A stretch of DNA of 64,000 nucleotides from Bolinopsis microptera (lineage: Eukaryota > Ctenophora > Tentaculata > Lobata > Bolinopsidae), in contig NC_087082.1 in NCBI RefSeq assembly GCF_026151205.1, positions 1-64,000 on the forward strand. The letters are read 5' to 3'. A program made the position numbers and the translations under genes. The notes below the pieces were generated by a model. It was not told the DNA's origin. It ran no database searches and worked only from the letters and a program-made list of their open reading frames with translations. Position 1 is the first letter of the stretch. Every line of letters begins with the position of its first letter. Of this stretch, positions 3,316 through 55,703 are shown piece by piece.

Positions 3316-5793
3316 TTAAGTCGGCTGATCTTCTGGCAGAGGAGCTAATTGTTCGTTTACATTCGGAATATTTGCCATGACATTTAGTTCAATTTCGTTT
3401 GTTGCAACGTTATCAACAGAGTGAGTTAATTTCTTCCATACTCTCCAAACAAGAGAGGTCATACTTTTATACAAACCACTGTAAAATATCGGGTTGAGAA
3501 GACTGTTGATTGGAATCACAACCAGAGCGAATATTTCAAATGTTTTGGCTGGAGGGGGACTGTTACTGATCCACGAGAAGTGAATGACAGCAGCCATGAA
3601 GGACACCCAGCTCACTAACTGGGAGATTATCATGAGAGAAACTTTAAGAGCTAACTGAGTTGTGTTGTCATTATTGTCTGGGCCAACTCGTCGACGGGAA
3701 CGTTTAGCTTCGATGACAATGATGATGTATGCTACTGAAATTACTATCAGTAATGTAGATACAGCTATGCAATAGAAGACTTTGTACAATTGATAGCTGT
3801 TTTGCATCTTAAAGATGTTATATATACAGAGAGGTGTGTTGCCGTAGTATCCTATATCAATTACATCGAAAATTGTATCATCAGAGGTAATGTTAGCATG
3901 TCTGAGATCGGCCAGAATCTTTGAAATGTCTGTCGATGAACTGTTTTCAAAATAATGGCCGTGAATTTTTCGAACATGTTCTATCATGTCATGACCTTTT
4001 TGTGTCGATATGAAAGGGTTTCTTTGAACTGCAAGCAGGTTTATGCTTGTCCGGAAGACATTTTGTATCTGATGAACAGGTAAAGTAGGTACAATGGCAT
4101 GGATCAGGTTCAATAGAGAGACGACAGCAGTAACTATCATAACCTTTCTTTTAGACAGTTCAACAGAGCTCCCCATTGTACATTTAATACATCTCACTAT
4201 CCCCATGATGCCAATAACAAGCAATGATCCATGAGAAGATAGTGAAAATATAATTCCAAGCATCATACAATGCAAACTTGCACGCCACTCTTCATCAAAT
4301 TGACAGTAATCACCCTTGAACCGCAACACAATTCCTGCAACCATCATAAGTAACAAATATATTCCCATGAGAAGGTCGTAAAAGCATATTAGAAGCCGCA
4401 AAAGTTTGTCTATTTGAGCCGCTTTCGAATTTTGACTTGAATGTAAGGTTTTGAGTGCAACAACAATATTTATTATTATGGTGCTAAGTCCTAGAAAACT
4501 TGTCAAAACTGTAATGAGTATAGATTGTACCAGGAATTCTGAAGATGCCAAGCCATCCATGATGCAACCAGCACACTCATCTTTCCCATTTGTGCAATCT
4601 CTCCTTTGATCACATACTCTACTTTCGTCAATCCATGAGACAGTTTCATTTGTTGAGCAGTAAAAGCGTCCCGGACAACCAAGCTCATCAGCATTATTTT
4701 TGCAATTCATTATACCATCACAGATATCAGATATTGCGTATGATTCCTCGAACGGATCATCCATATTCTCAATTTGACATTGGAATACAAAGTTAAGTGA
4801 CATTCCAAACTGTATAAAGTCAATATGCTGACAAAATTTCTCCCATTTTTTCAACTCTGTTGTATTCGTACACTGACTACGACAAACTGACTTCGCTTGT
4901 CCACCAGAAAGTACAGCGGGACTACGTATATTCAAGTTTTGTAGACAATCGCCCAGCTCACTTGTTACTTTGTAATAATAATTTTCACCTCCGTCAGTGC
5001 AATTAATATCGGCTGGATGGCCTGAGCAGTCCAATTCTCTTATTTGTGGTAAATATAAACAGTACTGGGCTCGGGGTAGGCAAAGTCGTTTTATTTGTGG
5101 TATCTTGTGACACGACAACTCATATGAATCCTGACAAAGGCACTCATCACTTTGGTCAGCACAGTCAACTATCCCGTCACAAATATTTGCAAAGCTGATA
5201 CAAGCTATCCCTCCGTCACTCCTTGGACAGTACATGACCTGGTCCTGATAGTATGTTCCTCCGGTCCGGCAGTTGCACTCATCAGTCGAGCATATACTGT
5301 AGGAATTACATAATTCACTCGGATATATTTCACATTGGTAAAGGTCTCCTCCCACCATTGTCAAATCTGATAGTGTGTCATTCACTAGAATCTCACTCCA
5401 TTCCAGGTAAAAATTAAAATAATCTATTTCAATGGGGCAAATTGTCGACATGTTTCGATCATAGGTTTTATCCAATTTGTCGTCCTTGTGATAAAATCGA
5501 CTGTCAGTATCGTTATAGCGCATGTACCTCCCAGATGTAATCAGTCTGTGACACAGTGAAGGGTAAATATATAAACTAGACCGATCAACAAAGGAAGGGA
5601 ATAAACTTAATGGGTGTTTATAAAGCGAAACAGATTTTACCGCCTTCTCGTCCATTTCCCTTCCCACTTTTTCTCTAGATAAGTGCCCTTTTCCGTCTTC
5701 ACTTGTATTACAGTTTGAATTTGTTGATGATATGCCGACAGTTTTATTGAGTATTATAACACACAGTAGGATTGCTGACTTGATCTTCTCCAT
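3316..5793 (-). CDS. LDLa-domain class A (rhodopsin-like) G-protein-coupled receptor
   Basis: An uninterrupted 825-codon frame. Residues 1-20 form a hydrophobic signal peptide (MEKIKSAILLCVIILNKTVG). The ectodomain is Cys-rich and carries LDL-receptor class A modules. Their signature ICDGIVDCADQSDEC lies around residues 205-220 and DICDGIMNCKNNADELGC around 355-375, followed by a third degenerate one (VCDQRRDCTNGKDEC). Seven hydrophobic helices follow from about residue 425. TM2 is LLICFYDLLMGIYLLLMM. TM3 ends GIVRCIK where a classic receptor has DRY. TM7 contains LNPIFYSGLYKS, the NPxxY motif. A basic stretch (EAKRSRRR) sits in the third cytoplasmic loop. It should be a plasma-membrane receptor of the LDLa/relaxin-receptor-like kind without leucine-rich repeats; the ligand is unknown. 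The gene is intronless, which could mean retroposition or ancestral loss of introns. The C-terminal third is duplicated at 22091-22461. Confidence 0.88.
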   Translation of the reverse strand: MEKIKSAILLCVIILNKTVGISSTNSNCNTSEDGKGHLSREKVGREMDEKAVKSVSLYKHPLSLFPSFVDRSSLYIYPSLCHRLITSGRYMRYNDTDSRFYHKDDKLDKTYDRNMSTICPIEIDYFNFYLEWSEILVNDTLSDLTMVGGDLYQCEIYPSELCNSYSICSTDECNCRTGGTYYQDQVMYCPRSDGGIACISFANICDGIVDCADQSDECLCQDSYELSCHKIPQIKRLCLPRAQYCLYLPQIRELDCSGHPADINCTDGGENYYYKVTSELGDCLQNLNIRSPAVLSGGQAKSVCRSQCTNTTELKKWEKFCQHIDFIQFGMSLNFVFQCQIENMDDPFEESYAISDICDGIMNCKNNADELGCPGRFYCSTNETVSWIDESRVCDQRRDCTNGKDECAGCIMDGLASSEFLVQSILITVLTSFLGLSTIIINIVVALKTLHSSQNSKAAQIDKLLRLLICFYDLLMGIYLLLMMVAGIVLRFKGDYCQFDEEWRASLHCMMLGIIFSLSSHGSLLVIGIMGIVRCIKCTMGSSVELSKRKVMIVTAVVSLLNLIHAIVPTLPVHQIQNVFRTSINLLAVQRNPFISTQKGHDMIEHVRKIHGHYFENSSSTDISKILADLRHANITSDDTIFDVIDIGYYGNTPLCIYNIFKMQNSYQLYKVFYCIAVSTLLIVISVAYIIIVIEAKRSRRRVGPDNNDNTTQLALKVSLMIISQLVSWVSFMAAVIHFSWISNSPPPAKTFEIFALVVIPINSLLNPIFYSGLYKSMTSLVWRVWKKLTHSVDNVATNEIELNVMANIPNVNEQLAPLPEDQPT

Positions 5794-5870
5794 TTGACTA
5801 CAATTGTGTCTTGCCTGTCAAATATACGGGTATTAGTGTTGCAGTAGTACTTCTATTATTAGTACTACTA

Positions 5871-7073: not shown

Positions 7074-7509
7074 ATATCATCTTTTTTTGATTATTATGTC
7101 AGGATAATTTACACAGTCGAAACTTCATGAATAACTATAAGTATAAGGGGGTAATTTCAACGATTTCGAAATTTTACCTTTGAAAACATTTCCTTGTCTT
7201 TAGGTAGGTATATTTGTCGATAAAAGACTGAATAAGGCACTTTTTACTCACTCAAGTTGGCATTTAATTCATATATATAATGCCATTTAAATATCGTGGG
7301 AAAGCAGAATATATTCGAAATCACGAAAAGCAAAATTCTCACCTTTCGCACGTGCAAACTTTGAGCGGACGCTGCATGCGCATACAACATTGAATCACCG
7401 TACATTTTTGCATAGTGGTATTTAATATATAGTTTGACAAGCACGCAAAGTTTCAAAAGATTTCAAAAAGAACTTGAATCACAACGGGACTCCAAAGTTG
7501 ATAAAAATC

Positions 7510-10350
7510 AAGGCTAAAGGATCAGGAGTTTGTCTTTACCTGAAAAACTCTCTAAACTTTAATAAGATTACTGGATTATCTCTCTGTAATGAGCACATAG
7601 AATCACTGTTTGTATCTATCACCAGTATGAAAGACCCAACTGTTGTAGGGGTTATCTACCGTCCTCCAAACGCATCACTTGAACTGTTTAACGAAGCATA
7701 TGAACGTATTCTCTCTAAACTGAATGGCAAGAAGGTATATATCCTTGGGGATTTCAATGTTAACATTTTAAACCACCCATCTTCATCAGAGGACAAATTC
7801 CAAGAAATAATATTTAACAATGGCTTTATACCAACCATATCAGTGCCAACTCACCATATGCCTGGTTGTTCCAGGACTTGTATTGACAATATCCACACCA
7901 ATGTATTAGACCAATCCCTTATCTCTGGTGTCATATCTGACAAGATCTCCCATCACCACCCTATATTCACATTTGTTAAGCTTTCCCCCGACTCTGTGTC
8001 ACTATCTGATTCACCAGACAAAATTACTATACACTACGACTATAGTAATGCTAACCTAGAGAAGCTCTGTCTTGAAATAGAAAACGATTTAGATAGGTTC
8101 CACTACAGTTGTGACACATTTGACTCTTTTATGCAGCTATTTCAAGAAAAAATAGACTTGTCTTGCAAACTTCTAACTCCAAGAACCACTAAACGTAATA
8201 GCATAACCAACCCTTGGATTACCCAGGGCCTAATTAATTCCATCGAGAAGAAAGCTAGATTGTATTTCGAATGGAAAAAGACTTGTACATTAAAATTACC
8301 TGACGGGGATCCGAATAAGCACATTTGCTACAAGGAATTTGACAAGTTTCTCAAAAGCTCAATAAATATGGCAAAGGCTATGTGCTACACTAGAAAATTC
8401 GAAAAGTACAGCATGAACTCGAAAAAGACGTGGGAAGTTATTAATGAACTCCGTGGTAAAACTATGTCTCGATGTAAGGACGATTTTGTCATAAACGGTC
8501 AGAGAGTTACCTGCAGACGAATAATTGCTAACAAATTTTGTGAATATTTTACATCTCTTGCAAGTAATCTCAATAAAAATGTACTGACGAACAATAGTAT
8601 TTCTCTGGAACCAATAGAATCATTTGCTCAGTTCATGTCAAATTCAGTATCTGACTCCATTTATCTGGAAGAAACTAATAAAGACGAGATCATCGAGGTG
8701 ATCAAAGATTTTCAAAATGGCAAGGCGAGTGACATACCAATAATTGTAGTAAAGAAATCATCAAAGCTCATAGCTGGTACCTTGGCCAGGCTTTACAACA
8801 CATGCATACAAAGTGGTACATTCCCGAGTATTTTTAAAACTGGTAAAGTTATTCCTATTTACAAGAAAGACAATAAGGAATGTATTGAAAACTATCGGCC
8901 TGTATCAATATTGCCTTTATTTGGAAAAATTTTCGAGAAGATCATTTACAAACGGCTCTATAATTTCTTCACATCTAAAGGTGTACTGACAGACTCACAG
9001 TTTGGATTTAGAAAAGGTCATTCCACCACTCATGCTCTACACAAATCTATAGACTCCGTTACAAAGACTCTAGCTGGCAATAAACATGTCTTAGGAATAT
9101 TCATTGACTTAAGCAAAGCCTTCGACACCCTTGACCACAACATTCTTCTAAGCAAATTAAACTCCTATGGTATTAGGGGCACAGCACTTACCTTACTTAA
9201 AAGCTATTTGACTAACAGAAAGCAGTATGTTATGTATAACGATGTACCATCAGAAACATTGGATGTGAAATTTGGGGTACCACAGGGGTCAATTCTAGGG
9301 CCGTTACTCTTCCTACTGTATATGAACGATATAGTGAACTGTTTTTCTGACAGTGAGGTGAAATTTGTACTTTATGCTGATGACACTAATATCTTTATTT
9401 CAGGACCATCTAGAGAAGCAACATACAAAAAAGCAAACTTAGTTCTTAAACATGTGTCGATTTACATGAAATGTAATCTACTCCATATCAATATGTCTAA
9501 ATGTTGCTACATCCATTTTAAACCTGCCTCTGAATATGATGAGACCTGTGCAAGGACCAGACCATTTGCTAACCTGCTAGATGAGTCTAGGTCAATATTC
9601 ATCGATGGTAAGGTTATTACTAAAGTCAAGGATACCAAATTCCTAGGTATTGTTATAGATAGTAAGTTAAACTGGGCTGCCCATATGCACTACATTCGTA
9701 AAAAACTTCGGTCCATGACTGGTGCAATCTGTAGAATTCGACACTCGATACCTGGTGAACTATATTTGAAAATATATAATGCTCTCTTTGAATCACATCT
9801 CAGTTATGGTATAAGTGTTTGGGGCGTTGTCCTTAAAGAACGATCAAATGACAGTCTTTTTATCACACAGAAGCACTGTGTAAGGATCCTTTTTGGTGAT
9901 CTCGACTCATATTTAGATAAACAATCAACATGTGCACGTACTAGACCGTATGGTATGCAAAAATTAGACCATAAACACTTTGAAAAGGAGCATACAAAAC
10001 CCATTTTTAATAGACTAAAAATTCTAACGGCTCAAAACTTGTACAAATATCACTGCATTTTAGAATTCTCTAAGATTATCAAGTACCACTGCCCCTACTC
10101 CCTTTATGAGGCCATCAACATTTCAAACCGTGCAACGAGTCTAACTGTTATTCTTCTAAATAAATCAAATACCTTTTTGTTTAATGCAGCCAAGCTTTGG
10201 AACACAGTTCATAAAAAAATTTTAACTTCAAGCAATTGCCTAGAAACTTCCATTAACTTGATAAAATTGAGAACCAAAGCACTATTAGTACAATCACAGG
10301 CAGCTGACTTAAAAGATACCTGGACTCCAACCAATTTTAAATTGCAGTAA
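7510..10350 (+). CDS. LINE ORF2: partial endonuclease (EEP) plus reverse transcriptase
   Basis: About 946 codons remain. The frame happens to extend 12 codons back into R sequence with a non-ATG start, so the annotated beginning is a truncation point and no start codon is implied. The C-terminal half of an apurinic-type endonuclease comes first (GVIYRPPN, then ILGDFNVN, and a CIDNIHTN region). After a linker come the reverse transcriptase motifs: ENYRPVSILP, FIDLSKAFDTLDH (motif A, with its catalytic Asp), GVPQGSILGPLLF (motif B) and LYADDTNIF (motif C, the Asp pair). A C-terminal domain follows. There are no internal stops, so the copy is young. The missing N-terminal endonuclease half makes it unable to move by itself. 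Clade assignment within CR1/L2/Jockey would need a tree. Confidence 0.88.
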   Translation, partial: KAKGSGVCLYLKNSLNFNKITGLSLCNEHIESLFVSITSMKDPTVVGVIYRPPNASLELFNEAYERILSKLNGKKVYILGDFNVNILNHPSSSEDKFQEIIFNNGFIPTISVPTHHMPGCSRTCIDNIHTNVLDQSLISGVISDKISHHHPIFTFVKLSPDSVSLSDSPDKITIHYDYSNANLEKLCLEIENDLDRFHYSCDTFDSFMQLFQEKIDLSCKLLTPRTTKRNSITNPWITQGLINSIEKKARLYFEWKKTCTLKLPDGDPNKHICYKEFDKFLKSSINMAKAMCYTRKFEKYSMNSKKTWEVINELRGKTMSRCKDDFVINGQRVTCRRIIANKFCEYFTSLASNLNKNVLTNNSISLEPIESFAQFMSNSVSDSIYLEETNKDEIIEVIKDFQNGKASDIPIIVVKKSSKLIAGTLARLYNTCIQSGTFPSIFKTGKVIPIYKKDNKECIENYRPVSILPLFGKIFEKIIYKRLYNFFTSKGVLTDSQFGFRKGHSTTHALHKSIDSVTKTLAGNKHVLGIFIDLSKAFDTLDHNILLSKLNSYGIRGTALTLLKSYLTNRKQYVMYNDVPSETLDVKFGVPQGSILGPLLFLLYMNDIVNCFSDSEVKFVLYADDTNIFISGPSREATYKKANLVLKHVSIYMKCNLLHINMSKCCYIHFKPASEYDETCARTRPFANLLDESRSIFIDGKVITKVKDTKFLGIVIDSKLNWAAHMHYIRKKLRSMTGAICRIRHSIPGELYLKIYNALFESHLSYGISVWGVVLKERSNDSLFITQKHCVRILFGDLDSYLDKQSTCARTRPYGMQKLDHKHFEKEHTKPIFNRLKILTAQNLYKYHCILEFSKIIKYHCPYSLYEAINISNRATSLTVILLNKSNTFLFNAAKLWNTVHKKILTSSNCLETSINLIKLRTKALLVQSQAADLKDTWTPTNFKLQ

Positions 10351-15987: not shown

Positions 15988-17196
15988 TTAAAGGTGTATT
16001 GAAATTAACCTTTTCTTGGAGCTGAAGTGAGTAACCATTAGTTTGTTTCTTGCCACGATCCCGCGGATGCTGAGCGTCTTATCGGATTGTGAGATAGTAG
16101 GTGGTGGTCGGATCGACACATTAGAAATGTTCTCAAGTTCTATGCTCTTCTTCACATGCTCTGAAGTTGTCATCGGGAAATTCCGCTCAATGCAATAATT
16201 ATGCAACACCATGCAGCTCACGATTATAGCGCATGCCATATCAGGTGCAAACATCAGGGCACCCCCACTCTCCTTGCAGAGGCATCTGAAGCGAGATTTT
16301 AGTGCCCCAAATGCCCGCTCAATTACACACCGAGACTTCTTGTGGCGTCCATTATATTTTACCTTTGCCGTGGAGTCCGGTTCAAGATACGGTATCATCA
16401 TTTCTTCTCTCTGAGCATAACCCGAATCCCCAATGAGCCAACCTTGGTAGTCAGAGGGTTTTGAAGCGAGGAAAAGCCCCAGTTCTTCTCTGAAAGAGCA
16501 ATGCTCCCATATTGTAGAATCATTTACGCTCGCAGGCCACCGAACAGATGCTTCCAAAAACTTTAATCTATGGTCACAAATTGCCTGACAGTTAATGTAG
16601 TGTCCGGGATGCCGACCCACATACGCATCTTCGTCAACTGACGGGGCTCTTATCTTTATCTTAGTCCCATCAATTGCCCCAAGACACCCTGGAAACCCAC
16701 CATAATCCAGGAAACCTTGTTTAGTCGCAACAACCGAGCTTGTTTCCCACGAGTTAGTGATATACTCACTCGCCAATGACGACAAGGCAACCGAAACATT
16801 CTTTACACAATTCTCGACAGAACCAAGTGACAGTTTGAGGTCGGCAGTGCTGCGAAGTGAGCGAAGTGAGTTGCCAGAGGAATAGAAGCTAAGGGCAACC
16901 ATGAGCTGAGTCTCAACAGGGAGGCCAGATTGAGTCTTCCGCTCAATCAACTCGTGTTTTCTGATTTTTTCTGCGAAATGATGGATTCCGACTTTGTCTA
17001 AACGAAAATTATCTATTATTGAAGTATCAGTAGAGCGGTCAAGAAAGTCAGTAACAGACTGATGAGTTCGACTGACGACCGGATGGCTCTGGACGGTGAC
17101 CCTGTTGCTATACCAATGATAAAATGCCATTATTGATTTCGTGAATTCCTTAAATGCAAATAAATTAAGTTGATTGTTGAGGGAGTGTGGTGTCAT
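15988..17196 (-). CDS. Harbinger (HARBI1-like) DDE transposase
   Basis: An intact 402-residue frame of about the usual length for Harbinger transposases. A helix-turn-helix-like N-terminal part (ETQLMVALSFYSSGNSLRSL, around residues 94-115) precedes the DDE_Tnp_4 nuclease. Its acidic residues sit in GAIDGTKIKIRAPS (about 183), GDSGYAQREEMMIPYLE (about 255) and VIERAFGALKSRFRCL (about 290). This enzyme cuts and joins element ends in the nucleus together with a Myb-like partner, here encoded divergently at 18006-19120. No stop or frameshift is visible. It could also be a domesticated HARBI1 gene, but the partner gene and element ends beside it favour a transposon. Confidence 0.92.
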   Translation of the reverse strand: MTPHSLNNQLNLFAFKEFTKSIMAFYHWYSNRVTVQSHPVVSRTHQSVTDFLDRSTDTSIIDNFRLDKVGIHHFAEKIRKHELIERKTQSGLPVETQLMVALSFYSSGNSLRSLRSTADLKLSLGSVENCVKNVSVALSSLASEYITNSWETSSVVATKQGFLDYGGFPGCLGAIDGTKIKIRAPSVDEDAYVGRHPGHYINCQAICDHRLKFLEASVRWPASVNDSTIWEHCSFREELGLFLASKPSDYQGWLIGDSGYAQREEMMIPYLEPDSTAKVKYNGRHKKSRCVIERAFGALKSRFRCLCKESGGALMFAPDMACAIIVSCMVLHNYCIERNFPMTTSEHVKKSIELENISNVSIRPPPTISQSDKTLSIRGIVARNKLMVTHFSSKKRLISIHL

Positions 17197-18005
17197 AAAT
17201 TATAGTCATATGTGTATTTATTAGTTAAAATTCCTTATTATATATATACAATATATATATATGAAAGAGAAATATATATATATAATAATTATAATAGGTA
17301 ATCAACTCAGAAAGTGCTGGAACTGATCCTGGAAGTAATGTAAGAATTCAAGTAATGTAAGCAAAATCACACACACTGAATTTGGTTTGGTTTGGTTTGG
17401 TTTAGAGAGCTTAGACGTGAGGTCTAAACTGGGTCGATTGAAAAGTGAGCTACAGATTAGCGGCTGGGAAAAACAAAGAGATGGAGATTAGTGATTAACT
17501 ATGCTGGTAATCAGTACGGGTGCTGAGTGAACGTTTGGCAGACCATAAAAACCGGAAGAAAAACTGTTAATGACTTTCAAACATCCTAGAATTAAGTGCC
17601 ACAACCATGAGGTTAAAGTCAAGAAGGTCTAAAATGGATCTAATTGTATAATGTGCTACCGAGAAAAGTACTTAGCAAAGTAACATGAGGAAATTAAACT
17701 ACTATAATTAAGGGGATAAATGGTGATCGTGAGATAATAACTACAAACCATGCCTCATGATAGACGATAAAGTGAGTATATGAATGGAAAGAGCTAAATA
17801 ATTAACTCCGGTAATCAAATACTGGTATTACATAAAATAGTGAAGTCCACACGTTTAAAATTCTGTCCATTATAGAAACTGTGCCGGGGTAATTTAAGCG
17901 GGAAAAAACTAACAGCAGGAGCCGGGATTATCAGAATCTATCCCGCCCGCCCGTTCTTCGCTCAAATTTGTTTTCTGTTATAATTATCAGTTATCAACCT
18001 TCATC
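17197..18005. promoter_or_regulatory. Divergent intergenic region of the Harbinger element
   Basis: About 0.8 kb between the two divergently transcribed Harbinger genes. It contains an AT dinucleotide tract (17237-17285) and a ggttt pentamer run (17382-17402). It presumably holds both promoters; no specific core element can be assigned by eye. Confidence 0.4.
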
Positions 18006-20666: not shown

Positions 20667-22461
20667 ATCGATGCAATGAATTGAAGGACAATAGATTTTT
20701 TGCAAAGAAGCGAGTCCGATATCATCAAAATGTTCCTTTAATATAGTCAGCGACAGAGCTTCTTTTGTTTTTAAAATCTGCTAGTACGCGACATTGATCG
20801 ATTCTTATCTGTAAATAATTTTCTCGCTGCTGCACGTGCATTATATGAATATCGAGCTGCTGATATATTATTTATAGCTGTTGCATTACATAATTCGAAA
20901 TGAATTTGAAAGAGCTCGATCATGGTTTGTGATTTCACAGTAATGTGATACATTTAAGTTATAATTTGATTTTCAAAACTGGTCACTCAGTTTTCATAAA
21001 AATAGAAAATGTTTCAAAAAATTTAAAGTACTCTCACTTAATCGAGGTTAATCTGCCTAATAGTAATAGTAATAAAGGTGAACTTATAATTATATACGAG
21101 ACCGAAGCGAAGGAATAGCTCCTTTTTTAAAAGATTTGACCTTCACCACACACTACCTGTTGAGAAACTTATTTTTATATTATTTACCCAGATCGGGTGT
21201 CTATTTACCGAGAAAAAGGTTATATACTCGCCACAGGAATATACCAATAACTAGACTCAGGTGGGTACGTCCATCTAACTATCTGAGAAAGACGCTCAGA
21301 GATAAAGCCATATGTTTGGCACATCTGCAAAGGCAGCTCTCTAACAAAGTGTGACATCTACCCAAAAGGCAAAACCTTTTCCACTGGTACTTATATGATT
21401 GATCTTGAGAAAGATCCGAATGTTTATAGAACAAAGGAAGCCAGTATAATGGTGAATTGTCATCGATGTACCGGTTCCGGTTATATTTAGTCTCTTTGTC
21501 TTCTATTCGGGGCGTTTAGACTTTAGTTTCTCTTGTCACCTTTATCTCATATCGTCCCAACTCCCAAATAATCAAATATCATCGATTGACTCGAGAAAAA
21601 ACAATAATACCGAGCTGTTAAAAGATTCTAAAAAGCTGTTGCATTACACGATTCGAAATGAATTTGAAAAATTATTAGTCATTCAGCAATGTGATAAAGT
21701 GGAGTAACAAATTTATTTTAAAAACCGGAAATTGATCAGTACTCCCAAATATAGCAAAAATATAAAGTATGCTTCTTTCCTAATCAAGGATGATATGTGA
21801 TTAATTTTTACCCCCATGAAAACTACAAATGCTGTAATCTGTAATACTGGAAGGAAAACATCGGTCATGATTAAGGCGTTCAATTATTTGCTTGATTAAG
21901 AATCATATGGGATGTACAAGAAGAAAGAAATTGTAGCTATAATAGCGTTAAGATTACTAAATTTTATTTTTGAAAATGAGACACAGTTCCTGTCTGATCT
22001 AATTGTCTGGTTGACCAGACAATTAAGCATATACAATATAACTTGAAGTAGAGAGGGGACTGGGGGAGGTGGTGAAAGCATTTTTTTCTTAGATTAAGTC
22101 GGCTGATCTTCTGGCAGAGGAGCTAATTGTTCGTTTACTTTCGGAATATTTGCCATGACACTAAGTTCAATTTTGTTTGTTGCAACGTTATCAACAGAGT
22201 GAGTTAATTTCTTCCATATTCTCCAAACAAGAGAGGTCATACTTTTATACAAACCACTGTAAAATATCGGGTTGAGAAGACTGTTGATTGGAATCACAAC
22301 CAGAGCGAATATTTCAAATGTTTTGGCTGGAGGGGGACTGTTACTGATCCACGAGAAGTGAATGACAGCAGCCATGAAGGACACCCAGCTCACTAACTGG
22401 GAGATTATCATGAGAGAAACTTTAAGAGCTAACTGAGTTGTGTTGTCATTATTGTCTGGGC
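20667..22461. repeat. Segmental duplication, copy B
   Basis: Counterpart of 517-3683 without the MULE insertion. Upstream, 20480-20667 is shared only with copy C (26720-26893). The right end is abrupt at 22461 inside the receptor coding sequence, where LINE sequence begins. Confidence 0.9.
22091..22461 (-). pseudogene. Truncated receptor duplicate (TM6-TM7 and tail)
   Basis: Encodes the last 125 or so residues of the LDLa receptor, from DNNDNTTQLALKV to the stop. It includes TM6, TM7 with NPIFY and the cytoplasmic tail. Compared with the full gene it has conservative changes (VWKKL to IWKKL, NEIELN to NKIELS, IPNVNEQ to IPKVNEQ). The 5' part is gone, replaced by LINE sequence. With no signal peptide, ectodomain or TM1-5 it cannot make a receptor. 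Confidence 0.9.
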
Positions 22462-23436
22462 ACAGGTCAGGGTGACATTCAAGCACCTCCTGTCTTTAAT
22501 TTCTGCCTAAACTTTTCTGCATTTCTGGCTGAGACCAACAAGATCATCAGTCAAGGCGCAGTGCTGCAGAAAGAGATGAAGACGGTCGAGGAAAAGGTCA
22601 TTCTGGACACCGATTATGCTGATGACATGGCTATTATGGAAGGCCTACAGGAATCAACTGATCTATTAGTTCATTACAGCTCCTACGCTGGGCTCAGAAT
22701 AAATGCAAAGAAGACCCAATGCATGGCTGTAAGCAAGTGCGCCTCCCAGCGACCTTTCATCAAGGATGATTGTATTGAGCTGTCGGTTGAGGGTGAACCC
22801 GTCGAGCAGGTTAGCAACTTTGTCTACCTGGGTGCAACTATCAGTGGGGATGGGACAATCAACAGAGACCTGGATGTCCGTATTCAGAAGGCTAATGGCG
22901 CCTTTCATCAGCTCTGGAACATTTGAAATAGCAGAACTATAAAGACTCCAACCAAGATCAGGATCTATAGGGCTGCTGTCCTCACCATCTTGTTGTATGG
23001 AGCTGAAGTCTGGAACACCACCAAAAAGCAGATGAAACGCTTCGAGGTTTTCCATCAAACCTCCTTGAGAAGGATCCTTAGGATTAAATGGTTCTTTCAT
23101 GTGACCAACGACGAAATTCTTAGGAGGGCTGGCATCAAGTCAGTTGAGACTTTCATCAGTGCTGCCAGGCTACGTTGGTATGGACATGTAGTTAGAATGC
23201 CAGACTCTAGACTACCGAGGTTTCTGTTGAACTGGAAGCCAAATTATGGAAAGAGGTCAAGGGGCAGACCCCGTAAGAACTGGAAGTCCTGCGTACTCGA
23301 AGATGCTGCTAAGTTTACAGGTGTTGAAAACATCGACAACGACACAACAGAAGCTTTGGCTACCAACCGAGTACAGTGGAGACATATGTTACGCCGCCAA
23401 CGCGATGTGTGTGATGCAGGCCACTCCAACGACTAG
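22462..23436 (+). pseudogene. RTE-like reverse transcriptase C-terminal half with one stop codon
   Basis: The frame opens GQGDIQAPPVFNFCLNF (RT motif B region) and continues DTDYADDMAIMEG (motif C, the Asp pair), then LRINAKKTQCM and FVYLGATISGDG. After a TGA at 22924-22926 it continues in the same frame: YRAAVLTILLYGAEVW, RLRWYGHVVRMPDSRLPR, GRPRKNWKSCVLEDA, ending DAGHSND-stop. The GHVVRM and RGRPRKNW boxes are hallmarks of the RTE C-terminus. The N-terminal endonuclease and RT motif A are missing. Confidence 0.85.
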
Positions 23437-24191: not shown

Positions 24192-26212
24192 TGTTGATAC
24201 ATGTTTCGGCGGCGCGAAAAGTGGCATGCAACGTATGTCAATATTTATGATACCTTACAAGACATATTTATAACGTACGAAATGCGACGGTTTTCCCGAA
24301 ATTTCGCCATATTTTCGGACCGCCAAAATTTCGGTCGTCGTAATAGAATCCGTCGCATTATTTTTAGCTCATTCCAATAATTGTGGCTTCATCGATTCAT
24401 TTTGTTCTTGAAAAGTTAGTGATATGATGGTGGGACAAATAAACACAATATTCCGATGAATTTAATGTCAAGTAATACGCTTATCCGAGAATCTTACTCC
24501 TTGGAGTACACTGGAGAACAGCGAGAAACTGAAAGAGTCGAGCCGGACCCCTTAAGTATAGAGGAAGATGAAGAAATCGATTTATAAGTTTCATTTTGTT
24601 TCAACATGATTTTACCGATTTTTAGAAAATTTTGAATTTCCTTTGTGTCAGAAAACAAAATGATGAAAAATACCCTTATTTTCTGTGACGTCCGAAATGT
24701 GACGGTTTTTGTTCAATTTCGCCATATTTTCGGACCGCCAAAATTTCGGTCGTCGCAAATTGGTCCGCCACAAAAAAGTCATGTAAGGTACGTCATCTGT
24801 CGTCATGACTATTTTAATTTACCTCACATTTAGGCTCACGCAGTAACGGCAGTCGGCAACGCTATGACTATTCATAACTTTGGTTGTGATTGATATTTTT
24901 GATACGGTAAAAAGTATCGTTTAGGGAACCAAATACTAAAACAACATTGTCGTCGTTGCCAAATAAAAGCCACACTTTCTACAATAATTTTGACAGTATA
25001 ACAGAGCTAGACGATGAAAAAAAAATTAAACATAACTGATTTTAACAAGAATTTCGCCGCGGTCGCGGTTACACCACGCACGATCAAATTTACCTGCAAT
25101 GTAATCGTTTTACTTGTATTTTAACGGGTGCGGGCCGCCGGGTGATAGTGATACTCGTAAAATATTTGTTTCGTAAAATATTTGTACTCGTAAAATATTT
25201 GTTTCGTCGACGAGTCCAACTCGGCGCGCGTCCTGGTAGAGGTAAATTAATATAAACCTACAACTTGTATTGCATCCCATAGTGGTGTTTGGCGCACGTG
25301 ATAACCGTTTTTATTATATTAGGCGTGCTAAGTACATGTACCTGAAAGGCTTTTATCCAACAGGTTTCTCTCAGACTTTTTATATCTCACTCCCTTTTTC
25401 CACACTAGGTGACCGAAACGTACACGTCATTCTCAATTCTATAGCAAACAGGCGACTACTCTCGCTACTGAATCAAGTGCTGTGCGACACACGGTCATCC
25501 TAGTATGATGAGATTAACGATGCTTAAAACGACAACTATACTAGCAAAAACGTGTCCCCACGCGCTGGGCCGGCCGGGGTGTATCTATTATAGTTATACT
25601 GTTGTCGTTGAATCTACGGATACTTGAATGTAGGCTACAATTGACTGCCAAAGTGTCTATATACTATTGTATTATTGATTATATACTAGTGTATTATACA
25701 CTTGTATTATATACTAGTGTAATACAAGTGTATAATAATAGGCGGGTGTGGTGCGGAGTTAACAAGGGTTAATTTCTAAAACGATTTAAATAAAAAATGG
25801 AAAGCGGTTCAAATATAATAGTATTATAATATTTGAAAACACGCATAACATTAACATTGTCGTATGAAAGTATGAACTCTCTCTGCGGTCCAAACAGGAT
25901 ATGAACAACTCCCCTAATACGCTTATAGTATAACATGACAGCGAATCTTACCCGGATAACCCAATTATGATTTATGTACCAACGCTACTTATTCAGCTAC
26001 ATATGCAGTAATGGGAGAGCGAGCGAGGAGGGAGAAAATGTGAGATATTTATGTAACATTTGTGGTACAAAACCATCAATTAAACCACTTACCATGCCAC
26101 CGACCGATTTAAAAAAACCTTTACCATTTGCCTTTGGCTTTTTCATAGTTTAGTCGGCACTATACCGAAAAAACCAGCCCCGTAACTCTTACCGTTTTTT
26201 TTATTAAGCCGC
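24192..26212. other. Intergenic, several short repeats, possible small coding exon
   Basis: Contains a duplicated word (atttcgccatattttcggac and flanks) at about 24298 and 24717. A 41-codon acidic open frame at 24465-24587 and an AACAAGAATTTCGCCGCGG-type terminus at about 25046 are also present. An R block-E fragment lies at about 25608-25665 (tgaatctacggatacttg, ggctacaattgactgcc), with AT palindromes at 25676-25740. No larger gene is visible. Confidence 0.4.
24465..24587 (+). CDS. Possible small acidic ORF or terminal exon (doubtful)
   Basis: ATG to TAA, 40 residues: starts MSSNTLIRESYSLEYTG and ends in an acidic tail SIEEDEEIDL. Open upstream to 24423 with another in-frame ATG at 24456. 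Codon choice looks more coding-like than the surroundings, and an acidic C-terminus like this is common at the end of transposase or regulatory proteins. I do not recognise it. It lies between the two copies of the atttcgccatattttcgg repeat. Confidence 0.2.
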   Translation: MSSNTLIRESYSLEYTGEQRETERVEPDPLSIEEDEEIDL

Positions 26213-26271
26213 TCGGAAATTACACGCACACAGACAGAAAACACACATTCTGAGATTATTGTTTAAGATAA

Positions 26272-26316
26272 GCCATACTGATGAGTCCTAATAGGACGAA
26301 ACACTGTGTCTATGGA
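26272..26316 (+). ncRNA. Type I hammerhead ribozyme, copy 1
   Basis: The conserved core is complete: CTGATGA (26278-26284), stem II GTCC/GGAC with loop TAATA, then CGAAAC. Stem III is short, ACA/TGT around a CTG triloop, followed by cleavage-site C at 26310 (TGTGTC). Stem I pairs CCATA (26273-26277) with TATGG (26311-26315), all five base pairs Watson-Crick. A minimal stem III of 3 bp is usual for animal type I hammerheads. Confidence 0.93.
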
Positions 26317-26462
26317 TAAATATGCTCGTCTAGTTTACTAAGCTTGAGCACTCTGGGGAATGAATAGATCTACCGCTTAGCTTAAACGCAAAGCTCCTAA
26401 CTCGTAATGAGTCTGTAGAGCACTCTGGTACCTATTTCTTTCCCTCATCATTAAGGGCTTGG

Positions 26463-26524
26463 TGGTGCAGTGGCATGGTCCCGGGCCAGCAGTCGTAAGA
26501 TCCTAAGATTGCTGGTTCGATTCC
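26463..26524 (+). promoter_or_regulatory. tRNA-like internal Pol III promoter (A and B boxes)
   Basis: A box TGGTGCAGTGG at 26463-26473 differs from consensus TGGCNNAGTGG at one position. B box GGTTCGATTCC at 26514-26524 is a perfect match to GGTTCGANNCC. They are 51 bp apart, within the working range for type 2 Pol III promoters. The surrounding sequence resembles a tRNA T arm (one mismatch in the stem) but does not fold into a full cloverleaf, so it is tRNA-derived and not a tRNA gene. Confidence 0.8.
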
Positions 26525-26558
26525 CGCCATCAGCAAAAATCAACCCTGATGATTTGAG

Positions 26559-26601
26559 CCCTACTGATGAGTCCTAATAGGACGAAACACTGTGTCTATG
26601 G
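26559..26601 (+). ncRNA. Type I hammerhead ribozyme, copy 2
   Basis: Core identical to copy 1 from CTGATGA (26563) through TGTGTC (cleavage after 26596). Stem I is CCCTA against TATGG, so one of the five pairs is a C-U mismatch. That may weaken it compared with copy 1. Confidence 0.88.
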
Positions 26602-26719
26602 ATATATAAAATATATATGCTTTCTTAGTTCTGATCTCACGTATGTTAAGGAAGCTTGAAAAGAGCGCCGCGTACAGGGATTGGCGTGCCAGCTAATACT
26701 AAGGGCAAGGCACAGACGC

Positions 26720-39992: not shown

Positions 39993-40316
39993 GCTTGAAC
40001 AATTATCTAAGGTAAAAATTTCCTCAGATTTTGAATAAAATTACTTTTTAATGGTGTAAAATCATTTTTAAAAGTTATTACTTTGTCAAAAATCAAGTTT
40101 TAAAAACGGTTAACTTGATGACGTCATCAAGGGGTGTTCATGACGTCAAATAATTTGTTTATACAATGTAAACTAAAGTGTAAACAATTATTTTCAAGAC
40201 CTGTGGTCGGAATTGGCTGTATCTTTTATACTTTTGAATCTACGGACAATTAAATACAGGCTACAATTGACTGGCAAAGCGTCTATCCCTGAATATATAT
40301 GTATGTATGACTATGT

Positions 40317-40883
40317 ATATTAGTGCTTTTCATGCAACAAGTAAAACAAATCCTTTATGTCATGTTTCCAGGGTTTGGACTGGAATTGCCTGCTTAAAGA
40401 ACCTCCATCGCATTACATTACATAATTTTCTGAAACATATATTACATTTACAATAAATTATGCAATATCACAACATTACAATCAACAAAATAAATTTAAT
40501 CGCAGAATCTCAAATGCAAATAATCGTAAATTAAACACAAAAAACAAACAACAAAAAACAAATTAAACATGCAATAAATGAATATACGAATGCGCATCTT
40601 TTGTCAACTTACTCCTTCATAAAATTAATTTTTGACAACAAAATTTTTTAGACGGTAAAATAATGGTTACTAATTTATAAGTCACAAATAATAAATCAAT
40701 ACAAATTAATCACAAATACTAGAATAATTAATAGATATTAGGTAACTTATATAACTGAAAAACGATATATGTCGATACAAATTACAAAATAATATTAGGT
40801 GATTGAAACATTTCAATAAATTCATCATAAATATCACTACCATATTTACCCCAAATATTTAATCTTGATTTATAAAACTTGAC
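40317..40883 (-). repeat. Penelope-like element, 3' terminal repeat (pseudo-LTR)
   Basis: 567 bp that match 43646-44212 at a constant offset of 3,329 with no difference I can see. It spans the element's 3' end and the last 34 codons or so of its ORF. A partially tandem 'pLTR' of this kind is typical of Penelope-like elements. Confidence 0.93.
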
Positions 40884-43577
40884 AAACTTGTTGCGCAAAG
40901 CAGCCAACTTAAATCCTTGCGCAACCAATTTACCTAAAAGTTCGGTAACACAATTTTTGAAACCCTTAAGTGTCGAATTAATTCTGGCTAATCGTACTAA
41001 TTGAGAAATAAATATTCCATAAGACAAATTATTTGGAACGTTTCCATCCAAAAAAGGATAAGATATAACTTTAAAATTATAATCTTTTCTTTTATCATAT
41101 AACGTCACTCTAAACTTTCCTTGATAAATACTAATGTTTAAGTCTAGATAGCAACATTTACGAGCCGAAATATTAGTATTATTTACTATCATTTCCTTAG
41201 GATAAATATCTTCTAATACATTCTGTAATAAATTGAAATCATTAAAAACTATCAAATCATCTTGATAACGAAATGTGTCTTTTAATCTTTTTAGATTTTC
41301 TGTATCCCCTTGTTCTATCAAAAGTTTAATATATTTATATTCGTAAACATGTAAATAAACATTAGCTATTTGTGGTGCTGCATTGGTACCCATTGGTATT
41401 CCAATAACTTGTCTATAAATTTGACCCTGATAAGTAACATAAGAATTATCAATCAAATAATTAAGACATTCCAAAAGTGTATCTTTAGAAAAATGAACTT
41501 TATTTTTACTAACATTATCAGAGAAATATGCCTTCTTAGTATAAAGATTAGGAATAATATAAGACTTATCTTTAAAATCAAATACTCTTTCTACAAACAT
41601 ACGAAGATTATCCTTCAATTGAATATGAGGAATAGATGTATATAAAGTTGAAAAATCATAAGTACTGACAGACTTTAAACCTTTCTGGGTATTATCATAA
41701 CTAAGAAAATCTAAGATAGGCTCATTATTATCAATAACAAAATAATCATTTCTAACGTGAAATTTATTATCATATATAGATTTATTTTTAGCTGAGTGAA
41801 GCATAGATTTAATACAAATGCTAAGATAGACTGATAATTGTTGTAAACTACTTCCACTACCAGACGTTATATATCTAACTCCGACTGGCTTTTTATGCTG
41901 TTTTGGTGTAATATATAAATAAGGTAATTTGCTATTATCTTCATCAAATTTAATACGATGTTTAAGTAAGAATGCTTTATGCTCATTAATTATATCATCT
42001 TCTGAACGATTAACTTTAGTAAATGTATTCGATGATAATTCCTTTTCAATCATACTAATATAGAACTTTTTACAAACAATAGTAATATTATTTTTGGCTT
42101 TATCGGTAGGAACCAATACAAAATCTTTATGAAGCTCATCTAAATCTGCTAAGACTTCAACATCTGATAATACTGAATAATAGGGATATGGTTTAGCTCC
42201 TTGCAGTTGAATTTTCACTTGCTCTATGATTAGTGTTTTCCACTCTTGAAACTCTTCTATAGGTTTATGCCATAAATTAGACAATTTATCGCAATAGCTT
42301 TTGAGTGCCGTCTTTACTGATTGTAAAGCTTTTTCAGTACATGGTTTAGCTTGGTCTCTATAATTTAATCCCTTCATTAGGAGATTACGAAGTTTATCAT
42401 TACTGATCATTGATAGCTCTCCTGTAATGACATGTTTATGAGTAGGGTCTGTATAACGACTTGATGCACAATTACATTTCAATGTTTCTGAGTCAATGTT
42501 AGCTTCATTATATACTTTTTTGTAGTTAAGTACTTTAGATCTGATTGTTGGAGGGTATTTGTAGGACAATGTAGGTTGCTGATGATACTTTGACTTGAAT
42601 GGTGCAGCTTTAGTAACTTGTTCCATTTTAAATATCTTTCGAAAATCAATATACTCGACAAATTTATTAACATAATTAACTACAATAAAAGAATTTGATT
42701 TACTATTATTCTTACACGCTAAACCCATTCTTGTAAGGTAAAACCATGATAAATCTTTAACTAAGAGAATTTTATGAAATCTATATGTCGTTATACTACT
42801 ATTAAAATTATTAATATAAGATATAGCTTTAATATATACTAACTTAAGTTGTTTCTTTTTAAGATTACATAGATTAGTACGAATATCATGCATATCAATC
42901 ATATTATCATCATCCAGCAAATCTTCATAAAATACATCGATATCAAATTCTTGTCTTTCACTTACTATATTACTAATAAATCTACCTCCACGTGAATGTC
43001 TATTTATTTTAACTATATCGAACTGACTATAAATCGTTGTTTTAGAGTTCATCACAATATTGCAGGCATCTAGTATGTTCTTCTTTTTAACACGAACGTT
43101 GAGACCATATGGGAAAACTGTATTTAACTGCAACATACAAGCTTCTTCAATGTCTTCTCTTTCTTTCAATGTAGTATTATTAGGTAAGAGTTTAATCGGC
43201 ATGATAGCCATGTTTTCAGTGCTATGAATTTTAGTGAAGTGATCACGAAGTATTTTGCAGCCTCCACCACGTTTTATAGTAGATTTATGTTGGCTTATTC
43301 TAGAAGCAATTGAATTGATAGTGTGCCCAATGTATTGATATTTACAATCTTTATGCAAGCATTTTATCAAGTAGATGCAATTCTTCGTTTGACATGATCA
43401 ATTAAAGTCAATGAGGAAAGTAGAGTTTGTAGTGTTATTAGTGTAGAAGTTGTCAAAAGAAAGGCGGTTTAAGCATGTAACGCATGATTTTCTATCACAT
43501 GGTACTATGTTAAAGGTTTCAAGAGATTCTGGATCATTTATACTCTGATGATCATCAAAAGATTGTTCCGACTTCAT
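40782..43577 (-). pseudogene. Penelope-like polyprotein: zinc cluster, GIY-YIG nuclease, reverse transcriptase (one stop codon)
   Basis: ATG at 43577 (MKSEQSFDDHQSINDPES) opens a 931-codon frame interrupted only by TGA at 43400-43398, 60 codons in. A cysteine cluster (PCDRKSCVTC) comes first. Next is the GIY-YIG nuclease: CIYLIKC stands for GIY, then YQYIGHT for YIG, Arg and His in SRISQHKS, HFTKIH, a catalytic-type Glu in EREDIEEA, and LNTVFPYGLN. The reverse transcriptase follows: YLYITPKQHK, TYDFSTLYTSIPH (motif A), GIPMGTNAAPQIANVYL (motif B), FRYQDDLIVF (motif C) and CYLDLNI. Homologous proteins have Cys-x-Cys where the stop lies, so TGC or TGT to TGA is a likely single mutation; readthrough or recoding is not excluded. 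The enzyme would prime reverse transcription at a nick made by its own nuclease domain in the nucleus. Confidence 0.88.
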
Positions 43578-43645: not shown

Positions 43646-44212
43646 ATATTAGTGCTTTTCATGCAACAAGTAAAACAAATCCTTTATGTCATGTTTCCAG
43701 GGTTTGGACTGGAATTGCCTGCTTAAAGAACCTCCATCGCATTACATTACATAATTTTCTGAAACATATATTACATTTACAATAAATTATGCAATATCAC
43801 AACATTACAATCAACAAAATAAATTTAATCGCAGAATCTCAAATGCAAATAATCGTAAATTAAACACAAAAAACAAACAACAAAAAACAAATTAAACATG
43901 CAATAAATGAATATACGAATGCGCATCTTTTGTCAACTTACTCCTTCATAAAATTAATTTTTGACAACAAAATTTTTTAGACGGTAAAATAATGGTTACT
44001 AATTTATAAGTCACAAATAATAAATCAATACAAATTAATCACAAATACTAGAATAATTAATAGATATTAGGTAACTTATATAACTGAAAAACGATATATG
44101 TCGATACAAATTACAAAATAATATTAGGTGATTGAAACATTTCAATAAATTCATCATAAATATCACTACCATATTTACCCCAAATATTTAATCTTGATTT
44201 ATAAAACTTGAC
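43646..44212 (-). repeat. Penelope-like element, 5' terminal repeat (pseudo-LTR)
   Basis: Identical by eye to 40317-40883. Its first bases (in element orientation) repeat the ORF's C-terminal codons, so it arose from an upstream, 5'-truncated tandem copy. Confidence 0.93.
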
Positions 44213-44415
44213 TTGATTGTCCCGACAATCTGTCGTAAAACAGGGGTTCTAGAAAACCCACTTCCCGATGTTCCTGAAACCTGAAACTTTTTTTGCAGTC
44301 GATTTGGTCAACGTCTAGACGCCCTGAAAAATTTCAGATCTCTAACTCGATTTTAACATGGTTTTTAAGGCACCTGAATATGGCGATTTTGGGTTTTTTA
44401 CCGAATTTCGTATAA

Positions 44416-44758
44416 CAGTGCTGGCGAGTATTTTATGCAAATTTCTTAAAAATCTCAACATAACTATTTTTTATTCCGGTCATCTTTGACATCAAATTAG
44501 AATGTTTTGAACTAAAAATAAATCTGCTGAACGACTTCCGATGAGTCTTAATGCCTGAAAAACTCCTGCCGGAGGAGGCGGCCTTCGGCCGCCGCCTCCG
44601 GCCGGAGTGCACGCTTCGCGTGCACGAAAGAGGCTTGTAACGTGTACCAAAGGGGGTATAATAGTAAAGGGGGTTTAATAGTAAAGGGGGTATAATAGTA
44701 AAGGGGGTACATAGTATACCCACAATAAATGCACCGGTCGTGCTTGCCAGCACTGTGA
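44416..44758 (+). repeat. R end block with GC-rich hairpins, copy in R-f
   Basis: Same structure as 14086-14437, ending gtgcttgccagcactgtga|ta. Confidence 0.85.
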
Positions 44759-54095: not shown

Positions 54096-55700
54096 TATGA
54101 AGTATTACTTACTTGGGTTACTTGGGTTGGGTTCCGAGCTAGAGTGCTACCAGGCCAAGAATGTCTTGCATCTCCACCGCCATGTAGTAGCGTGTCAGAG
54201 ACACGTGCCACCGGCCCACTCCAGCATTGAGTTCCTGTTCTGTCCAGTGTACCCAGGTGTTGGTGGAGTGTCAGGGAATTCATTGAGGAAAGCATCAAGA
54301 GCGGGTTTGAAAGTGGTCAAGGTCAGGAGAGACTTGATGGCGGGAGGGACCACGTTGTACAGTGCAGAGGCTCTAGAGGCAAAGGAGTTGAACCTCAGGT
54401 TATTGACACTTGTGTACTTGGAGGACCCTAGTGGTCGTATACACGTAGTTCCGTATCGTGAGGTCTCGCGGAAGTTGATGTTCATGCTGTTTGGAGCGAG
54501 ATTGTTATAGATCTTCCAAACTAGGATGATAGTGTATCTCTCACGCCGCCTTTGAAGGGAGTACATAGACAGGCGACGGAGGCGTTCCCAGTAGTTGAGA
54601 TTTCCAAGACCCTGGATTTTAGCAGTGAAGGATCGTTGAACTGCTTCGAGTTTAATAATTTCGCACTGCATGTGAGGAGACCACAGAGGACAGCAGTATT
54701 CAAGATGAGATCGTACGTAGGACTTGTACAGGAGCATCATGGTCGCTACATCCCTGGAGATGAAGGTGCGTAGCACCCAACTAGCCATGTTTCTGGCTTT
54801 GGCAGACTTCATCGCTATGTGAGTGCGCCAGTTGAGGTCTGGGTCGATATAGACACCCAGGTCCTTCACGTGGTCAGAGCCCTTAAGAGTCTCTCCAGAT
54901 GGTAAGATGTAGGGCTGCTTCAAGTCCGGTAGTTTGCCGTGTTGTAGAAGCTGGAACTTTTCCTCGTTAAGCTCCATGTTGTTAGCATCAGCCCAATTCA
55001 CAACCGAGAGAAGATCTTCTTGGAGAAGGATGCGATCGATATGGGAAGATATATCTTTGTGGAGCTTCGAGTCATCTGCAAACACTTTGATCTTGCTGTG
55101 CTTGACTACGGAGAAGATGTCGTCAATGTAGATGAGGAAGAGAAGGGGACCTAGGACAGTACCCTGAGGAACCCCACTGATGACGTCGATGATCGTGGAC
55201 ATGACCCCATCCACGATAACATGCTGCTTTCTGCCAGTAAGAAAGCTGGCTATCCAGTCGTAGAGCTTACCACGGATACCAAAGGCCTGAATCTTCTTGA
55301 GGAGTATCTTGTGGTCAACCTTATCAAAGGCTTTGCTGAAGTCGAGGTAGAGCACGTCAGCATTTTTGTCGAGGTTGAGATCGCAGATTATATCCTCGAT
55401 GTGATGGAGAAGCTGGGTGAGGCAGTTCTTGCCTTTTTGGAAACCGTGCTGATCAGGGTTGAACATGTTGTTGCGTTCAAGGAAGCTGACCATCTGGTTG
55501 CGCATGATGCGTTCACAGAGTTTGATGAGGTGAGAAGTCAGTGAAACCGGCCTGTAGTTAGCGGCTACAGCCTTGCTCCCCTTCTTGAAGATAGGGATGA
55601 TACTCTGGGAGCGGAACATCTCAGCGATGTCCGAAGTATCAAAAGATAGCTGCCAGAGCTTGGCTATAGTGGGAGCTAGAGTAGTAGAGGCTCTTACGGG
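54096..55700 (-). mobile_element. Non-LTR retrotransposon, 5'-truncated, CR1/Jockey-group
   Basis: Minus-strand LINE that begins within the reverse transcriptase near 55700. It ends after its stop codon (54195) in a short 3' tail of repeated acccaagta / gtaagtaatac words at about 54096-54125. Confidence 0.78.
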
Positions 55701-55703
55701 CAT
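54195..55703 (-). CDS. LINE reverse transcriptase, partial
   Basis: 502 codons without a stop. RT motifs in order: NYRPVSLTSHLIKLCERI, LYLDFSKAFDKVDH (motif A), GVPQGTVLGPLLFLIYIDD (motif B), VFADDSKLH (motif C), ELNEEKFQLL, then VKDLGVYIDPDLNWRTHI and a C-terminal thumb/tail ending MLEWAGGTCL. The open frame without decay suggests a recent insertion. The annotated ATG at 55703 is not a true start: the endonuclease and the first RT blocks are missing by truncation, and a stop stands five codons upstream. It is related to, but a different family from, the LINE at 7510-10350. Confidence 0.87.
   Translation of the reverse strand: MPVRASTTLAPTIAKLWQLSFDTSDIAEMFRSQSIIPIFKKGSKAVAANYRPVSLTSHLIKLCERIMRNQMVSFLERNNMFNPDQHGFQKGKNCLTQLLHHIEDIICDLNLDKNADVLYLDFSKAFDKVDHKILLKKIQAFGIRGKLYDWIASFLTGRKQHVIVDGVMSTIIDVISGVPQGTVLGPLLFLIYIDDIFSVVKHSKIKVFADDSKLHKDISSHIDRILLQEDLLSVVNWADANNMELNEEKFQLLQHGKLPDLKQPYILPSGETLKGSDHVKDLGVYIDPDLNWRTHIAMKSAKARNMASWVLRTFISRDVATMMLLYKSYVRSHLEYCCPLWSPHMQCEIIKLEAVQRSFTAKIQGLGNLNYWERLRRLSMYSLQRRRERYTIILVWKIYNNLAPNSMNINFRETSRYGTTCIRPLGSSKYTSVNNLRFNSFASRASALYNVVPPAIKSLLTLTTFKPALDAFLNEFPDTPPTPGYTGQNRNSMLEWAGGTCL

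Follow-up and report, generated by a model that had tools for sequence, protein, structure and literature searches.

The hammerhead pair in the window and its surroundings

A stretch of 64,000 nucleotides from Bolinopsis microptera, positions 1 to 64,000 of contig NC_087082.1 (the window), contains two hammerhead ribozymes with letters resembling an RNA polymerase III (Pol III) promoter between them. The question raised by this locus is whether it represents an animal retrozyme that carries a promoter of its own. A first-pass annotation had claimed as much from the letters, describing two complete type I hammerheads in the same orientation. An Rfam search confirmed these, as the only matches in the window over the gathering score of the RF00163 hammerhead (34 bits) were the two copies, both in the same orientation. 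The cleavage sites predicted from the letters, 26310/26311 in copy 1 and 26596/26597 in copy 2, are 286 nt apart, as had been stated, and the mismatch ascribed to stem I of copy 2 is visible in the Rfam alignment. The A and B boxes were likewise found where the annotation had placed them, both without mismatch. The features of the locus are as follows.

26271 to 26603, forward strand: whole insertion, about 1.2 retrozyme units, delimited by the family alignment; the position of its 3' end is common to other loci
26271 to 26317, forward strand: type I hammerhead, copy 1 (Rfam RF00163, 35.9 bits)
26558 to 26603, forward strand: type I hammerhead, copy 2 (Rfam RF00163, 35.6 bits), with a stem I mismatch
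26311 to 26596, forward strand: monomer of 286 nt predicted from the sequence to be set free by double cleavage
26463 to 26473, forward strand: A box TGGTGCAGTGG, no mismatch to the consensus
26514 to 26524, forward strand: B box GGTTCGATTCC, no mismatch to the consensus
26457 to 26534, forward strand: weak tRNA-like block, not a tRNA by covariance model (RF01852, 13.3 bits, cut-off 47)
26496 to 26511, forward strand: 8-nt tandem duplication between the boxes, missing from the duplicate locus L015
26597 to 26603, forward strand: TATGGAT, with which the element ends at its 3' junction; the predicted start of reverse transcription is just downstream
26604 to 26618, forward strand: TA-rich DNA at the 3' junction, seen in the sequence; TA/AT runs adjoin many loci

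The insertion measures 333 nt; it begins with the 5' strand of stem I in copy 1 and stops 7 nt after the copy 2 cleavage site. The hammerheads had been read as a tandem pair; the pair is indeed present, but it belongs to an insertion of 1.2 units, and the same copy occurs again at C11:3.809 Mb (L015), inside a segmental duplication. This duplication, 98.1% identical between window positions 25762-26660 and L015, includes the hammerhead pair, and its left end reaches the edge of the compared C11 piece.

A dispersed family of tandem units

The genome searched comprised 264.65 Mb in 232 contigs, of which C1 to C13, at 15.2-26.2 Mb apiece, make up about 258 Mb. The 18-base core CTGATGAGTCCTAATAGG had 75 exact copies, 40 on one strand and 35 on the other; its reversed control had none. 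Many of these cores lie head to tail at 276-280 nt, the arrangement on which the annotation had staked its reading. A search with the 286-nt monomer gave at least 77 genome matches (40 of 73 candidates scored), and a hammerhead over the cut-off was present in 67 of the 69 genome matches listed (74 of 35497 first-look candidates scored). The 63 loci that were read, including the window, covered all 75 exact-core places, other monomer-match places and three further hammerhead matches. From these, 57 were kept, the window copy, L019, L042, L080, L013 and L007 being set aside either as duplicates or as pieces of a single array.

Complete units outside the window (n = 24) measured 273-308 nt, mostly 276-280, a typical unit being about 277 nt. 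Inserts at the 57 loci ranged from 51 to 1816 nt and the largest arrays held 6.6 units; at least 1.05 units were present in 18 loci and fewer than 1.05 in the other 39. The family thus has the tandem units of about 170-400 nt, as dimers to multimers, that are expected of a retrozyme, with a type I hammerhead in the unit both in the window and in the genome matches. Its dispersal by retrotransposition is seen in a fixed 3' end, variable 5' ends and TA-rich flanks. Together, the type I hammerheads, the head-to-tail units of about 277 nt and this retroelement-like dispersal give good support to the claim of an animal retrozyme, and the conclusion that the element in the window is an insertion of a dispersed metazoan retrozyme family is well supported.

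Two loci of the family deserve separate mention. At C1:12165500-12170300, the flanks of L006 and L007 that face each other are reverse-complementary, as though a different element with inverted ends had inserted into a hammerhead of one retrozyme array. L036 has an additional hammerhead in the reverse orientation, complete with a TATGGAT and a TA tail of its own, and this locus probably consists of two insertions near one TA tract.

Internal A and B boxes

The tRNA-like block was present in all 24 complete units elsewhere and is thus an integral part of the retrozyme; a SINE inserted into one retrozyme copy was ruled out by the same count. The consensus used for the A box was TRGYNNARYGG and that for the B box GGTTCRANYCC. 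With an A/B spacing of 28-62 nt allowed, the window monomer had no box mismatches, a result equalled by none of 2000 dinucleotide shuffles, and the family consensus had two, which was reached by 1 of 2000. Three mismatches or fewer were found in 23 of the 24 complete units, and five in one L016 unit. The B box had been called perfect, which it is in the window, but it carries two mismatches in 19 of the 24 complete units. Elsewhere, a B box without mismatch was found in L015 and, as GGTTCAATCCC, in L053; of the 77 matches listed, the latter is the least similar to the window unit, with 74% identity, and has both boxes perfect at a spacing of 40.

The arrangement of the boxes as first described is likewise correct for the window, but the spacing of 51 is atypical and arises from the 8-nt duplication. 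Nearly all complete units have a spacing of 43-44, which is tRNA-like, and the family therefore has A and B boxes spaced as in a SINE. The A box fits 36 of the 39 gap-free haplotypes (43 distinct haplotypes in all, the 4 with A-box gaps being left out); it is lost in copy L030, as is the B box in copy L035. Subfamilies carry either TAGCTCAGTGG or TGGTGCAGTGG as A box, with the differences at degenerate positions.

Mean variation was 0.028 for 12 invariant box letters, 0.100 for the rest of the block and 0.133 for the degenerate letters. Counted over related haplotypes, and hence not as strict probabilities, variation as low as that of the 12 letters was found in 79 of 20000 column sets drawn at random from the block and in 408 of 20000 drawn from all non-hammerhead columns. 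B-box position 3 had been dropped from this set after its variation was seen, and with it added the conservation is weaker, at 494 of 20000 for block columns and 1669 of 20000 for all non-hammerhead columns. The whole 11-nt box windows rank 120 and 119 of 174, and thus fall in the more variable part of the unit.

The promoter had also been described as tRNA-derived, and this was not borne out. ARAGORN found no tRNA, the best score with tRNA-type covariance models was the 13.3 bits of RF01852, and queries with the block (89 and 85 nt, E up to 10) retrieved from the genome only retrozyme loci. Neither a parental tRNA gene nor another SINE sharing this head turned up, a weak negative in that the tRNA family search scored 63 of 14170 candidates and listed 9. 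A recognisable tRNA is thus ruled out by ARAGORN and the covariance models, and these together with the block searches give no recognisable descent from a tRNA of the kind that would define a SINE.

Two further possible signs of Pol III transcription were considered. TTTT is missing from the unit, which is uninformative, as it is also absent from about two thirds of the shuffles. A reading of the 5' insert ends as Pol III starts was unconvincing, with 5 of 57 at positions 137-140, where AT-rich letters make the boundary uncertain.

The claim of a Pol III promoter within the monomer itself therefore stands at the level of sequence, in that the boxes are integral to the unit, exceed shuffles, have tRNA-like spacing and vary less at their invariant letters. 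Judged in this way, the block is probably a Pol III type 2 promoter of unproven origin. It might instead be that the element is a plain metazoan retrozyme without a promoter of its own, dependent on read-through transcription, in which the A- and B-like letters are a decayed or accidental hairpin. Such a reading would agree with the view of metazoan retrozymes given in the available text of a 2020 review (PMC7761336), with the failure of tRNA models on the block, with the B-box mismatches of the 19 units, with boxes that are not conserved as whole windows and with the place of the block in the predicted rod-like circular fold (see below). It sits poorly with box scores in excess of shuffles, with invariant box letters that tend to escape changes, with subfamily changes between TAGCTCAGTGG and TGGTGCAGTGG at degenerate positions and with the two perfect boxes of L053, and we consider it somewhat unlikely.

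3' junctions and target sites

In 50 of the 57 loci the match to the family stopped at monomer position 7-16, equivalent to 7-16 nt beyond the cleavage site; in the other 7 it stopped elsewhere. The shared 3' end lies after TATGGAT, give or take letters matched by chance by the TA tract, and mostly TA-rich DNA comes next. Among terminal junctions caught by pattern (n = 49), 47 start with TATGGAT and one, L028, continues with AAAT; 26 of the 29 internal junctions caught by pattern read TATGGATAAATAT. These counts were taken with two L049 rows and L028 reassigned. The letters at terminal and internal junctions thus differ, which indicates that the last bases come from the target. L021, outside the pattern, also continues with AAATA, and both L021 and L028 extend a few letters past the fixed end.

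As the 3' ends span the cleavage site, and a self-cleaved linear RNA would lack this junction, the template would have been uncleaved or re-ligated, for example circular. The fixed 3' end and the TA flanks imply target-primed reverse transcription of such an RNA. In the simplest reading, a TA-rich primer would anneal, with one mismatch, to AUAAAUAU beside stem I, and copying would then pass through the intact hammerhead.

A TA/AT run of at least 8 nt was present in the 5' flank of 35 of the 57 loci, in the 3' flank of 40 and in both flanks of 25, against a background in the window of 1.5% per 47 nt. A carrier repeat, seen also beside a Penelope-like element in the window, was matched by 17 loci. 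With the duplicates L019 and L080 removed, together with L030, L047 and L050, in which the carrier match is more than 200 nt away, twelve loci lie near one internal TA site of this carrier, 9 of them within 25 nt on each matched side; 4 are oriented one way and 8 the other, and their 5' ends mostly differ. L068 is a carrier copy in which the TA site is uninterrupted.

Arrays, folding and circularity

The units of the L005 array, and those of L014, differ by 0-1 letters, as would be expected from repeated copying of one circle, an explanation that fits some arrays only. The L011 array mixes two subfamilies with 10-12 differences, and L016 units differ by 6-15 (the mean between arrays is 14), so that simple rolling copying from one circle does not account for every array.

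These arrays bear on a second alternative, in which a SINE that has Pol III boxes inside it gained a hammerhead at its 3' end and spread through a linear RNA template, with no circle, its arrays being formed by later unequal exchange or nested insertion. Such an origin would accommodate the 39 loci of less than 1.05 units, whose 3' end is fixed and whose 5' end varies, the mixed L011 array, the divergence in L016 and the resemblance of L009 to two successive insertions in one TA site. It would not accommodate the near-identity of units in L005 and L014, out of four arrays in which single units were compared, nor a 3' end placed 7 nt past a self-cleavage site, which a processed linear RNA would no longer contain. 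We regard this SINE as somewhat unlikely too. A satellite repeat spread by recombination only, as the tandem units and the one segmental duplication that takes in the window copy might suggest, is largely refuted, and highly improbable, given 57 scattered loci (duplicates removed) with fixed 3' ends and TA-rich flanks, a carrier site hit in both orientations and the uninterrupted carrier copy of L068.

Stem III of the hammerhead is very short, and two hammerheads may therefore pair for efficient cutting; a duplex of two copies over stem III was predicted at -8.9 kcal/mol. In dimer folding only this stem III duplex was seen, and no paired hammerhead. For the isolated ribozymes, the circles and the dimer alike, the minimum-energy fold was something other than a hammerhead; by the Rfam model the hammerhead core is intact. 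Vertebrate retrozymes are reported, in the accessible part of PMC7229834, to need dimeric hammerheads. Folded as circles, the family consensus was 66% paired and the window unit 63%, with z of about -3.2 and -3.3, respectively, against 60 mononucleotide shuffles of each sequence. An RtcB gene is present in the genome, with seven matches on C3.

Penelope-like elements and other features of the window

Positions 40785-43397 (reverse strand) hold an 871-aa open frame with an N-terminal GIY-YIG domain (PF01541, residues 6-60), presumably a Penelope-like element (PLE) with permuted domain order. Eight further full-length matches to this frame occur in the genome at 99-100% identity, one with a stop, and families related to it form head-to-tail arrays with a period of about 3.35 kb. 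The element, PLE-A, sits in the carrier repeat that retrozymes also hit, its flanks at 40100-40304 and 44221-44440 being copies of that repeat. No hammerhead or retrozyme sequence was found in 17 PLE flank loci of about 1-1.3 kb each, and in the flanks looked at PLE-A carries a twister-like motif, not a hammerhead. PLE 3' junctions were not in TA repeats in 2 of 3 cases in family A, 3 of 3 in family C and the 2 clear cases in family D, for which one comparison (C7) had no clear end. PLE families A, C and D were considered as retrozyme partners and set aside, since the 3' junctions compared are mostly not TA repeats.

The twister-like motif lies in repeats around the PLE at 40368-40412 and 43697-43741 (reverse strand), assigned by identity to L075, and in the window it is not over the Rfam gathering score. 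Copies in L073-L075 and L084-L086 scored 26.8-34.3 bits, short of the 37.6 cut-off; one of the helices shows UGC/GCA and CGC/GCG, and others show CGU/GCG. At E up to 10 this search also gave matches in 13 of the 14 control genomes, though none of these exceeded the cut-off. A different repeat (276-484 nt in common with L088) in L087, L088, L089, L090, L093 and L094 carries another twister-like motif, at 24.1-31.1 bits also below the cut-off and with other helix letters, GGU/ACC. For this type, 15 matches were listed on C1 at 28.5-28.8 bits, two of which were examined.

The window also contains two long reverse-transcriptase frames (7438-10350, forward; 54195-55718, reverse), a DDE_Tnp_4 transposase frame (15988-17199, reverse) and a weak reverse-transcriptase fragment below the Pfam cut-off (22426-22926, forward). 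An 833-aa frame, measured from stop to stop, at 3316-5817 (reverse) has 7-transmembrane and LDL-receptor class A matches just below the Pfam cut-offs.

Comparison with known systems

The available text of Cervera and de la Pena 2020 (PMC7229834) describes metazoan retrozymes as tandem units of a few hundred nt with type I hammerheads, occurring as dimers to multimers and devoid of LTR, PBS and PPT, and proposes for them circular RNA templates and LINE or PLE enzymes. The family described here is like these non-LTR retrozymes in its type I hammerheads and tandem units of a few hundred nt. According to the consulted portion of the 2020 review (PMC7761336), metazoan retrozymes seem to lack promoters, for which read-through transcription is proposed, and have no motif pointing to a partner element; in contrast to metazoan retrozymes as so reviewed, the present family has A and B boxes, a fixed 3' end and a TA-rich target.

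The schistosome repeats are an exception with a full tRNA, as stated in the section seen of PMC4918200, and Sm-alpha of S. mansoni is there and in the excerpted text of PMC2770079 SINE-like, with a hammerhead and similarity to tRNA-Gln-TTG. Compared by description, the family resembles Sm-alpha and Sj-alpha as a SINE-like element with a hammerhead. As far as those sources extend, however, the tRNA part of the schistosome repeats is recognised by tRNAscan-SE and their copies are estimated at more than 10,000, whereas the present family has no recognised tRNA and 63 loci were read.

Penelope-like elements with hammerheads are portrayed, in the portion available of PMC11167929, as having tandem copies, an internal reverse-transcription start and AT-rich targets. 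The family shares with them, to that extent, tandem copies, a ribozyme, a probable internal reverse-transcription start and AT-rich targets; unlike them, its 333-nt insertion in the window is too short for a reverse transcriptase and GIY-YIG frame. Plant LTR retrozymes release by two hammerheads an RNA that circularises (PMC4918200, in part), and for the monomer in the window a comparable release is predicted. A promoter has since been reported in the LTR of a plant retrozyme in the abstracted text of PMC9695139. Plant LTR retrozymes, as these partial accounts have it, possess type III hammerheads, LTRs of about 350 bp, PBS, PPT and 4-bp target duplications, from all of which the present family differs.

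In the literature searched, as far as its text was available, no promoter was found in a metazoan retrozyme outside schistosomes, and a full-text search for 'ctenophore' with 'hammerhead ribozyme', with a coverage that leaves out most subscription journals, found no paper. What is new here is the internal boxes, the mapped 3' end and the TA-rich target, the element class itself being already known.

A proposed life cycle

Taken together, these features suggest that the locus is an insertion of a non-autonomous, non-LTR retrozyme with a cycle of Pol III transcription, self-cleavage, circularisation and TA-primed reverse transcription in trans, a reading that we favour and consider reasonably probable. 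RNA polymerase III would start upstream of the A and B boxes borne by the unit and read through the tandem units, and the hammerheads would cut the RNA into monomers of about 277 nt. A ligase of the host, probably RtcB, would close each monomer into a circle. A TA-rich site may then be nicked by a reverse transcriptase acting in trans, and the TA primer end would anneal to AUAAAUAU just past stem I. Synthesis would run back through the intact hammerhead, often ending within one unit and sometimes making several rounds.

A stronger proposition is that everything required in cis, namely a working Pol III promoter, an excising ribozyme and a TA-pairing priming site, is held in one circular unit of 277 nt; we put this forward tentatively, as possible. 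If it is true, the circular RNA template would allow an insertion of more than one unit to regain a complete promoter and two cut sites, and animals would then have two independent retrozymes with a promoter, this family and that of schistosomes. With the cleavage junction intact at the 3' ends, the genome offers evidence for an RNA template that is uncleaved or re-ligated, and the family gives testable leads both on the promoter, in the A and B boxes, and on the partner, in the apparently TA-primed 3' end beside stem I. It may also add ctenophores as a phylum with hammerhead retrozymes, and the boxes carried in the unit suggest a way in which elements of this kind could be expressed at any site of insertion.
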